From the NCBI GenBank assembly GCA_030427885.1, contig JAUICM010000003.1, positions 372,001 to 436,000 of the forward strand: a stretch of DNA of 64,000 bases, read 5' to 3'. Under the pieces are notes generated by a model. That model was not told the DNA's origin and did no database searches. It saw only the letters and a program-made list of their open reading frames with translations. Positions 33,386 to 41,043 of this stretch are shown here, piece after piece. Made by a program: the position numbers and the translations under genes. The stretch is from Rhodothermia bacterium. GTDB lineage: Bacteria > Bacteroidota > Rhodothermia > Balneolales > Balneolaceae. How positions within the stretch are numbered: position 1 is the stretch's first letter; every line of letters begins with the position of its first letter.

Positions 33386-34204
33386 TTACTCTTTGTTCGA
33401 GATTGTATTCTCTTTTATAACTTTATCTAGTTCGTTGCCCTCATCCAGGGAATAGAAGTCCATCAATGTGTCGCTTCGAAGGCCAAGCCTCAAGGTTTCC
33501 AAAGGTATTACTTCTTCCGGCTGAATATTTCCGAGGTTTACATTACTGCCGTATTTACGAATGAACCAAACCTGCTGTTCTTTCTTTGGCGCTTCAAAGA
33601 TCAATTTATCAATCGAAATCTGATCGGTGATTTCTTCTATTAAACCTGACCGCACTTCTCCGTTAGGCCTGAACACACCTACTGTTCCGCTTTCACGTGC
33701 CTCACAAATAACCTTATCGGCACCTGCATTCAATTCCTGCTCGATCACTTTTACCCACTTGTATGGAGGTATAATCTCATTAGGGTTTTTACTTCCCACT
33801 TCTGAAAAGACCGTGAAATCCTGACTTAGTTCTTTTATGATCTTTTGTTTGCGTTCATCTGAAAGCCAGATCGTTCCATTCGATACTTCAACGTACTCAA
33901 TATTATACTTTTCCATCAGTTTACGATAATCATTCAACTGATCTCTGAGTACATATGCTTCAAAAAGGGTGCCTCCAAGGTAAACTGGTATTCCCGCTTC
34001 GGAATACACCTTTAATTTCTCATCCAAACTCTGAGTTACGTACGAAGTACCCCATCCCAGCTTGATCACATCAACATAATTTGAACAAACCTCACAAAAA
34101 TCTTCGGCTTGACGTACACTATACCCTTTATCGAGTACTAATGTGATTCCATGTTTTCTTGGTTTTTCTGACCTTTTTGGAAGATTGTTTAGAGAAAACG
34201 ACAT
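33386..34204 (-). CDS. comA: Phosphosulfolactate synthase
   Basis: About 272 residues from Met at 34204 (a longer frame begins at 34231 but the family starts near 'SLNNLPKRSEKPRKHG'). TIM-barrel enzyme adding sulfite to phosphoenolpyruvate; signatures are 'TLVLDKGYSVRQAEDF', 'VDVIKLGWGTSYV', 'YLGGTLFEAYVL', 'ISEVGSKNP'-like 'FSEVGSKNP' and 'VICEARESGTVGVFRPNGEVR'. In methanogens it starts coenzyme M synthesis; in bacteria the sulfolactate can be an end product or could lead to cysteate for sulfonolipids. comB and comC are not nearby. Eleven bases separate it from the GT5-like gene. Confidence 0.9.
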   Translation of the reverse strand: MSFSLNNLPKRSEKPRKHGITLVLDKGYSVRQAEDFCEVCSNYVDVIKLGWGTSYVTQSLDEKLKVYSEAGIPVYLGGTLFEAYVLRDQLNDYRKLMEKYNIEYVEVSNGTIWLSDERKQKIIKELSQDFTVFSEVGSKNPNEIIPPYKWVKVIEQELNAGADKVICEARESGTVGVFRPNGEVRSGLIEEITDQISIDKLIFEAPKKEQQVWFIRKYGSNVNLGNIQPEEVIPLETLRLGLRSDTLMDFYSLDEGNELDKVIKENTISNKE

Positions 34205-34269
34205 AATATAATTGTAAATCGAAGCATCCAATATACAAAAAAGGCCACTTCTTTTAAAGGTTCGGGTTT

Positions 34270-39357: not shown

Positions 39358-41043
39358 CTACTGCTCGTTATACACATCCGGGAGATCGTTCTCATAAAGT
39401 ATCACATCGCCAGGGGTGGCTATTTCTCTTACAATGTCATTTGCCTCGAACAAGCTGCTCACTACTCTCACATTTTCCATCGAATCTGACTCTTCTTCAA
39501 TTCCCTGTTTTATAGGAATTGCTCTTTCTTCGCCAACTAAAATGACAAGATCCAGCTTAGCTCTGGCTATGGCATTACCAAAGTTTTTGTTCTCTTCTGC
39601 TTCCAACTCCCCAAGCTCTATCATACCCGGTGTAATGATGATCCGCTTTCCTGAATTAAACTGTCCAAGGATCTCCACCGCATTTTTTGCGCCAACGGGA
39701 TTTGAATTAAAGGCATCGTCAATCACAAAAATATCCCCTTGCTGCTTTAATTCCAGCCTGTGTTCCACTGGTTCGATCGCTTTCGCTGCAATAGCCATTG
39801 TCTTTGGACGAATCCCCATATGATGAGCTACTCCTATAGCCAGAAGCATATTCTGAACATTATGAGCTCCCAGTAATCTGGTTTGAAACTGTTGCTTTTC
39901 GCCATTGAAATCTATTTCAAAATGAGATCCTGATGTATCATAGGAGATATCTCCAGCTTGTATGCTTCCCGAAGAAAGGCCCACTAATATCCGGGTTATT
40001 TCGGTGCGGCCTTCTCCCATCTTTGAAACCCGGGGGTCATCAGCATTCAAAACCGCAACCCCACCGGAATCCAGATTATCAACCAAGGTCCCTTTTTCTT
40101 TAGCAATCACATCCTGAGACCCGAAAGTTTCCAGATGTGCCACTCCTACATTCGTAACAATTGAGATGTCTGGTCTGGCGATATCACATAGTTCCTGAAT
40201 ATTACCTGCATAACGGGCTCCCATTTCCAGGATCAGGATCTGATGATGTGACTGAAGATCATTATTGATGACTTTACAGATTCCCATCGGGGTGTTAAAA
40301 CTGCCCGGAGTTGAACACACGCTGTACCGCTCCTTCAGAAGATCCCGGATCATGAACTTGGTACTGGTTTTACCATAGCTTCCGGTAATGGCGATTACTT
40401 TCAGGTGCGGCATGGAAGCCAGCTTCTTCCGGGCCTGTTTTTTAAAACCATTCTGTATGTATAGTTCGATTGGTTTGGTTAACCAGCTTCCGGCAAGTAC
40501 TGTAAATGGAATAATGATCGCTCCGAAAATCCATCCGAAAACCAGAAGCACCACATCAAAAGAAAGGAGTCCGGAGTCGTAGGTCGGGACGTGCTTCCAA
40601 AGAAAGGGAAGAATTCCAGTATATGACCAGACGGTAAAGTATAAAGGAGAGAAAAAACAGAAGATCAGAACCGGGATCATCAAGCGTTTAACCCGGGCGG
40701 TAAAAACCAGAGGCTTCTTAACTTTATCAGCCTTGTACCGGCCTACCGGACCAAACCAGAAAAACGCCCAGGAAAATAAACCTACTGCAAGTGCCGAGTT
40801 AGTGATCTCAACTTCAAGCCAGTCAAAACCTACTACAACAACGAATAGTAAAATATTATAGAGAGCCAGATCGCCCGGAATTACTTTGTCTTCCCAATGA
40901 TCCCTAAGCCAATGTCGGTACTCATTGTGTTTGTAGCCTACTTGCTGGAATACATGAAGAAAAAACCGAATCCGGTACCAGAAAAAACGCAGCAGAACCA
41001 GACAAAACAGAAATGATACGTAGTCAATAATAGAGTGATACAA
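39358..41043 (-). CDS. MurF-like Mur ligase fused to N-terminal membrane helices
   Basis: 561 residues. Residues 1-205 hold about five hydrophobic segments (near 5-22, 62-78, 84-100, 121-142, 160-188). After a basic stretch the Mur ligase core begins: P-loop ITGSYGKTSTK (219-229), 'ILEMGARYAGNIQEL', 'NVGVAHLETFGS', 'AVLNADDPRV', 'LLGAHNVQNMLLAIGVA', 'IDDAFNSNP' and 'ITPGMIELG', all typical of MurF. The ordinary MurF N-terminal UDP-MurNAc-binding domain is absent, replaced by the membrane part. The substrate may be a lipid-linked or otherwise different precursor; that is inference. Confidence 0.88.
   Translation of the reverse strand: MYHSIIDYVSFLFCLVLLRFFWYRIRFFLHVFQQVGYKHNEYRHWLRDHWEDKVIPGDLALYNILLFVVVVGFDWLEVEITNSALAVGLFSWAFFWFGPVGRYKADKVKKPLVFTARVKRLMIPVLIFCFFSPLYFTVWSYTGILPFLWKHVPTYDSGLLSFDVVLLVFGWIFGAIIIPFTVLAGSWLTKPIELYIQNGFKKQARKKLASMPHLKVIAITGSYGKTSTKFMIRDLLKERYSVCSTPGSFNTPMGICKVINNDLQSHHQILILEMGARYAGNIQELCDIARPDISIVTNVGVAHLETFGSQDVIAKEKGTLVDNLDSGGVAVLNADDPRVSKMGEGRTEITRILVGLSSGSIQAGDISYDTSGSHFEIDFNGEKQQFQTRLLGAHNVQNMLLAIGVAHHMGIRPKTMAIAAKAIEPVEHRLELKQQGDIFVIDDAFNSNPVGAKNAVEILGQFNSGKRIIITPGMIELGELEAEENKNFGNAIARAKLDLVILVGEERAIPIKQGIEEESDSMENVRVVSSLFEANDIVREIATPGDVILYENDLPDVYNEQ

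Follow-up and report, generated by a model that had tools for sequence, protein, structure and literature searches.

The window (the whole stretch of 64,000 nucleotides of DNA that was analysed) encodes on its reverse strand a Mur ligase in which membrane helices stand at the place of the usual UDP-binding domain, and which we read as the MurF of its organism, acting at the membrane and most likely on a lipid-linked tripeptide (probability roughly 0.55). The genomic evidence gives good support to a role like that of MurF, and MurF activity itself is, judged from sequences, very probable. As its substrate we favour, tentatively, a tripeptide already carried by the lipid, as in lipid I or II, over UDP-MurNAc-tripeptide. 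The protein seems to be a real membrane variant of MurF which replaces the soluble enzyme in 161 of the 195 sampled genomes of its class.

Domain organization

The gene and its parts are located in the window as follows.

39358..41043, reverse strand: membrane MurF, whole gene (561 aa; it starts with TTG at 41043 and its stop codon is 39358-39360)
40426..41043, reverse strand: N-terminal membrane domain, aa 1-206, with five predicted transmembrane helices (AlphaFold and positive-inside count)
40684..40752, reverse strand: basic cytosolic loop, aa 98-120, putative diphosphate or substrate contact
39361..40425, reverse strand: MurF catalytic core, aa 207-561 (Mur_ligase_M and Mur_ligase_C; Pfam, NCBIfam, Foldseek)
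40360..40383, reverse strand: ATP P-loop GSYGKTST, aa 221-228 (motif)
39697..39720, reverse strand: MurF-type motif DDAFNSNP, aa 442-449 (soluble MurFs have, for example, DDTYNANP or DDTYNASP)
39610..39633, reverse strand: TPGMIELG (soluble MurFs have, for example, LGDMLELG)
39376..39393, reverse strand: C-terminal ENDLPD, present in 48 of 48 membrane forms, where KGS is the usual sequence of soluble MurFs

When Pfam matches up to an E-value of 10 are listed, the 561-aa protein contains solely Mur_ligase_M (PF08245, aa 219-406, 145 bits) and Mur_ligase_C (PF02875, aa 428-549), both over their cut-offs, and the N-terminal Mur_ligase domain (PF01225) has no match in this list. The best NCBIfam family for the core is MurF (TIGR01143) with 259 bits, compared with 77-87 bits for the MurE, MurC and MurD models. 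The score of 259.0-259.6 bits does not reach the cut-off of 288.6; the match starts at profile position 65, so that positions 1-64 are unmatched, and nothing matches before aa 204. A score below the cut-off is expected from the missing domain, but it is also consistent with a changed specificity. Compared with the family, the protein thus has the central and C-terminal domains, the P-loop, the DDxxNxxP and MxELG motifs, the fold and the tree position of MurF, while it differs in having a five-helix membrane domain and no UDP-binding N-terminal domain, in scoring below the family cut-off, and in carrying HRL, TPGM and ENDLPD at places which in soluble MurFs are mostly G/K-R, LGDM and KGS.

This organization agrees with an earlier note on the same DNA, which had described about five hydrophobic segments in the first 205 residues and a MurF-like core whose UDP-substrate domain is replaced by membrane helices; Pfam, NCBIfam and AlphaFold concur, and AlphaFold gives five helices of membrane length. 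The P-loop is intact as stated there, whereas the "NNP-like" pattern was loosely worded, since the actual asparagine motif is DDAFNSNP. With a strict threshold, a hydropathy analysis of the single sequence finds four non-overlapping segments in aa 1-206 and none in the core, a number which is reached by one of 2000 shuffles of the whole protein and by 81 of 2000 shuffles of the N-terminal domain's own residues. The same architecture is common to 45 other aligned sequences with 40-79% identity to the window protein, which rules out chance or a frame error. The alignment comprises 46 sequences including the window protein; 47 loci had passed a 90% identity filter, two near-duplicates were left out, and one locus (L088) was dropped because it lacks a usable start. 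A TTG start codon, chosen by script, is found in all 25 loci from L044 to L068, and a conserved TTG start may mean weak translation.

No second MurF found in the genome

The genome to which the window belongs (4.15 Mb, 98.7% complete) is from a relative of the Balneolaceae in the Bacteroidota. Searching it with PF08245 and with TIGR01143 gives five places each, namely a cluster with MurE, MurD and MurC, then FolC, and the membrane MurF (the names of MurC, MurD, MurE and FolC are by NCBIfam), and no second murF was found by these profile searches. The earlier note had proposed to look for a normal murF, for instance in the dcw cluster, and had held that its idea of a different envelope step would fall if no other murF existed and the protein complemented a murF mutant; no normal murF was found in the genome, including the dcw cluster, so the first half of that statement is what we find. 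We also considered a split MurF with its N-terminal domain on a separate protein and rejected it, because PF01225 matches MurC and MurE alone in this genome.

The other wall genes are in place. By open reading frames the order of the cluster is FtsI-like PBP, MurE, MraY, MurD, FtsW, MurG, MurC, FtsQ, FtsA, FtsZ, with MraY directly after MurE and no murF in between. MurE, MraY, MurD, MurG and MurC score over their NCBIfam cut-offs and FtsW, FtsA and FtsZ over their Pfam cut-offs, and FtsQ was assigned by eye. The FtsI-like PBP matched several PBP models and passed no NCBIfam cut-off, and its transpeptidase domain is over the Pfam cut-off. Ddl and Alr are both present over their cut-offs, and the cell is therefore expected to produce D-Ala-D-Ala and to use it.

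The membrane murF lies outside the dcw cluster. In the neighbourhood of 24 loci there is no recognisable wall ligase or synthase among the best-conserved groups that were read; this reading was done by eye except for one protein compared with NCBIfam, and much of the list is noise from antisense ORFs. In seven of these loci a divergent gene nearby encodes a sugar nucleotidyltransferase, which resembles RmlA or GlmU but stays under all the cut-offs shown. Elsewhere in the window, the ORF at 33386-34231 presumably encodes a phosphosulfolactate synthase, and the ORFs adjoining it are what we take to be genes for a 4-alpha-glucanotransferase and a glycogen-branching enzyme.

Distribution of the two MurF forms

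In the set of 195 genomes of the class, 161 have the membrane form (two of them as fragments), 31 have a soluble full-length MurF and three have neither. The membrane form was called at E<1e-50 (159 genomes) and the soluble MurF by a score over the murF cut-off (31 genomes). Five genomes fall in neither of these sets; two of them (G213, G217) carry fragments of the membrane form, and the other three (G129, G223, G282) have only matches like other Mur ligases. In no genome among the 195 were both forms found, the best E-value for the membrane form in the 31 soluble genomes being 1.3e-43 or weaker. The idea of an extra ligase beside an ordinary MurF is thus not supported in this sample.

A sample of the phylum with 118 genomes, 29 of them in the window's class by our own count, shows MurF over the cut-off in 88 of the 89 genomes outside the class, and the remaining one (G078) has no match. 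The membrane domain was searched for in 394 genomes of the phylum (98 in the class and 296 outside, again by our count), which gave 83 strong matches, all in the class, each with an E-value of 4.6e-43 or better and each in an open frame of at least 535 aa, as the fusion requires. Four further matches are weak (at most 26.9 bits): two in the class in genomes with soluble MurF (G013, G118) and two outside it (G055, G415). The two weak ones in the class (G013:C17:3871-4362 and G118:C4:28447-28914) score 26-27 bits and lie inside frames of 725 and 833 aa. The named relatives are eight Balneolaceae records, including Gracilimonas and Balneola, and one Rhodothermaceae MAG.

A tree of MraY from 30 genomes of the class (18 with the membrane form and 12 with the soluble form), which as a single-gene tree is a weak species tree, places the soluble genomes in four places among the membrane-form genomes, and the common ancestor of the 12 soluble genomes also holds nine membrane-form genomes. 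From this interleaving one MurF form seems to replace the other. Judged from these sequences, it seems that repeated displacement of one form by the other took place in the class, or else transfer between lineages. The soluble murF is not beside mraY in any of the 12 genomes compared, but on another contig in nine and more than 1 Mb away in three. That the membrane form does the job of MurF is argued most strongly by the two forms being interchangeable and mutually exclusive.

The distribution also bears on the reading proposed in the earlier note, in which the ligase would modify a different polymer and have no part in making peptidoglycan stems. Such a role would fit a membrane domain without known relative among the databases searched, a gene outside the dcw cluster and a sugar nucleotidyltransferase nearby in 7 of 24 loci. 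However, the searches found no other MurF homologue in this genome although the remaining wall genes are there, the protein was never found together with soluble MurF in the 195 genomes of the class, and just three of these show neither form. We therefore consider this reading very improbable, and this proposal of the earlier note finds no support. Its other proposal, a peptide ligated onto a lipid-linked intermediate, agrees with the substrate that we tentatively favour.

Relationship to soluble MurF

A Foldseek search with the whole model returns MurF structures as its ten best matches, and 38 conserved core positions are common to the membrane form and soluble MurFs. In the trees the organism's own MurC, MurD and MurE fall outside all MurFs and membrane forms. 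The membrane forms are one clade (48 of 48 sequences, support 0.88 to 0.95) and so are the soluble MurFs of the class (30 of 30, support 1.0). Two fuller trees, which contain 30 soluble MurFs from the class and, as a further 30, the best-scoring MurF loci of the 118-genome sample, place the soluble MurFs of the class and the membrane form as sisters with support 1.0, apart from the other MurFs. Two earlier trees, which were smaller or partly faulty (one had MurEs among the MurFs and 13 loci dropped, the other had 19 loci dropped), do not contain this sister group, and the grouping found instead has a support of 0.041 and 0.523, respectively.

A sequence signature points in the same direction as the fuller trees. 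The residues NT precede a conserved G in 48 of 48 membrane forms and in 30 of 30 soluble MurFs of the class, but in none of the 30 other soluble MurFs of the phylum, which have NN. The longer pattern NTPLG fits just 14 of the 30 soluble MurFs of the class. As far as can be judged from sequences, the sister position and the common NT make it most likely that the membrane form descends from MurF. By the core in these two trees and by the NT motif, its nearest relatives are the soluble MurFs which 31 of the 195 class genomes have, but they differ from it in being full-length with a UDP domain, in scoring over the murF cut-off and in having ddl adjoining in 25 of 30 loci.

Some residues of the core have changed. 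The G/K-R pair of soluble MurFs corresponds to HR(L) in the C-terminal part of the membrane form, and this change and the one from KGS to ENDLPD might reflect a different incoming substrate.

The membrane domain and the substrate

AlphaFold, run with the 46-sequence alignment, predicts for the whole protein five long helices followed by the ligase (pLDDT 88, pTM 0.74), and for the first 205 residues alone the values are pLDDT 92.8 and pTM 0.86. A structural prediction of the helices had been suggested in the earlier note, and its five helices before the ligase core span aa 3-34, 57-76, 82-97, 116-142 and 164-209, the fifth continuing into the core. These numbers refer to the full-length protein; the model is numbered one lower (2-33, 56-75, 81-96, 115-141 and 163-208). 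The mean net charge over the 46 sequences is +3.3, +7.1 and +3.5 for the predicted cytosolic segments and -0.4 and -0.8 for the outer loops. By this positive-inside count the predicted topology is one of five helices with the N-terminus outside and the ligase in the cytosol.

Eleven residues of the domain are invariant (R24, Q33, Y37, K109, K110, T115, R117, R120, P191, E193, A204). All of them, and 17 of the 19 residues that are invariant or nearly so, are on the predicted cytosolic side, which comprises 73 of 205 positions (hypergeometric p 5.5e-7, with the segment bounds set by us from the model). The loop of aa 98-120, which has the mean net charge of +7.1, holds five of them (K109, K110, T115, R117 and R120). 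Because of this conserved cytosolic face the membrane domain is probably more than a plain anchor. If there is a basic pocket where the domain meets the membrane surface, it could accommodate the diphosphate by which a sugar is linked to polyprenol.

The domain itself has no match in Pfam, NCBIfam (at 1e-20) or PHROG. A Foldseek search against the PDB gives nothing under an E-value of 2.7 and VIA a best Z of 3.8 among 121 chains, and with such values the domain may still have a known fold.

With a membrane domain in place of the UDP-binding domain, the reaction is expected at the inner face of the cytoplasmic membrane. There the enzyme would use ATP to join the dipeptide made by Ddl, expected to be D-Ala-D-Ala, to the MurNAc-tripeptide stem. 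A tripeptide on a polyprenyl carrier, as lipid I or lipid II, would be held at its pyrophosphate and MurNAc end by the invariant basic cytosolic loops, and D-Ala-D-Ala would be added after MraY rather than before.

A less likely alternative, and to our judgement a rather doubtful one, is a membrane-anchored textbook MurF, which would still use UDP-MurNAc-tripeptide and whose membrane domain would have taken over UDP binding and would sit beside MraY. The replacement of soluble and membrane forms by each other in one class is simplest if substrate and product are unchanged, and the 38 core positions common with soluble MurFs fit this as well. On the other hand, the uridine-binding domain is gone and no stand-alone copy of it was found in the genome. 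The invariant residues cluster at the predicted membrane interface, and the replacement domain has no PDB match by Foldseek under E 2.7, to a nucleotide-binding protein or any other, although this last point is weak evidence. The lipid-linked tripeptide has a price of its own: if the two MurFs were swapped, MraY and MurG would have had to cope with the other stem at each swap, and this may count against it.

The D-Ala-D-Ala ligase

The best Ddl match was compared in 20 genomes. It scores 335-358 bits in the nine genomes with soluble MurF and 241-286 bits in the 11 membrane-form genomes, where three of the scores are sums over two pieces, so that the kind of Ddl follows the kind of MurF in 20 of 20 genomes and all 11 membrane-form genomes have the divergent Ddl. 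Both kinds separate in a Ddl tree of 10 and 9 sequences with support 0.979 and 1.0 (without outgroup and with G125 dropped). The Ddls of membrane-form genomes carry NTIPG-S(F/L)(S/A)FY-LW in 10 of 10 aligned sequences (L217:4557-5750, 397 aa, on contig C5 of the window's own genome, and sequences from L218-L236), and those of soluble-MurF genomes carry NT(I/M)PGFTxxS(M/L)(Y/F)PxxW in 9 of 9, a motif which is four residues longer. A Ddl motif is found within 1.5 kb of the soluble murF in 25 of 30 loci (L102-L131; one of the five misses is at a contig end). Near the membrane-form gene one was found in none of 58 loci with flanks of 1.5 kb or larger, some of which come from near-identical genomes. 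In Clostridia there may be MurF-like proteins with membrane helices as well as Ddls that carry a comparable NTIPGSLAFYLW loop.

The co-occurrence suggests that the orthodox ddl-murF pair and the pair of divergent Ddl and membrane MurF were exchanged as units. However, shared ancestry alone, or transfer of the ddl-murF pair, may give the same pattern. The co-variation could also mean that MurF and its partner Ddl form a module which adds a different terminal unit, that is not D-Ala-D-Ala or one with a modified end. Both dipeptide-handling enzymes indeed depart from the orthodox forms, the Ddl in its loop and MurF in the change from KGS to ENDLPD, and the best Ddl tracks the MurF type in all 20 genomes. 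Nevertheless we regard a different terminal unit as unlikely, because the Ddl of the window's genome scores 293.9 bits with NF002528, the NCBIfam model for D-Ala-D-Ala ligase (cut-off 262), and has retained the motifs KY and EHEVS, the genome encodes an FtsI-like transpeptidase, and the co-variation may have the other sources just mentioned.

Returning to the reading with a lipid-linked tripeptide, an arrangement to which we give somewhat less than even odds is that most of the class has a changed order of precursor assembly, in which MraY, and perhaps MurG, use UDP-MurNAc-tripeptide and a matched module of polytopic MurF and divergent Ddl completes the lipid-linked stem with the terminal dipeptide, this module being swappable with the orthodox ddl-murF.

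Comparison with known systems

MurF is taken as a cytoplasmic step which is completed before the lipid carrier is loaded. If our reading is true, this step can move to the membrane, perhaps to a later point in the pathway than in textbook bacteria, and there is a MurF without the usual nucleotide-substrate domain. The timing of the terminal dipeptide addition could be tested in culturable organisms, as two named Gracilimonas strains have the membrane form.

A precedent for the work on lipid-linked stems is the Mur ligase homologue MurT, which together with GatD is reported to act on lipid I and lipid II and not on any of the soluble UDP precursors (PMC6085368). By sequence MurT is distant, as the membrane MurF reaches 25.6 and 29.9 bits with models whose cut-offs are 800 (NF045635, NF052464). 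MurT also differs in amidating D-Glu with GatD (lipid II isoglutaminyl synthase) and in being described as water-soluble (PMC6085368). In Staphylococcus aureus, low expression of murF is reported to put tripeptide into the wall, which makes up 19.9% of the peptidoglycan in a conditional mutant and 23.8% if rho is disrupted as well (PMC9603463), from which it would follow that the steps after MurF handle tripeptide precursors there. By analogy, the MurT precedent and the tolerance in S. aureus would make the lipid-linked reading possible, short of proof. We found no description of a membrane MurF in the literature searched, which was covered by titles and the beginnings of abstracts and included no preprints and few subscription journals; term searches in the accessible text of PMC11117252, PMC8614978, PMC6508672, PMC6243061 and PMC4790310 gave nothing on it either.

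Viral contigs and plasmids

Five stretches of viral contigs fit a peptide pattern, and no relative is among them. Among plasmids there are matches in 121 records of the collection, which in no case extend over 80% of the query. Of twelve plasmid records examined, the annotated MurFs are of ordinary length, with 432-466 codons, in Monoglobus, Streptomyces (two annotated), Anoxybacillus, Limosilactobacillus and Bacteroides, and five others are unannotated or list no gene under the match. A Sulfitobacter plasmid (L177:69-3134) encodes a "Mur ligase family protein" of 1021 aa whose C-terminal part matches the MurF core. On the Streptomyces and Anoxybacillus plasmids (L176, L189, L191) murF adjoins a gene for a D-Ala-D-Ala ligase, and one of these ligases is labelled Van-like by the database.
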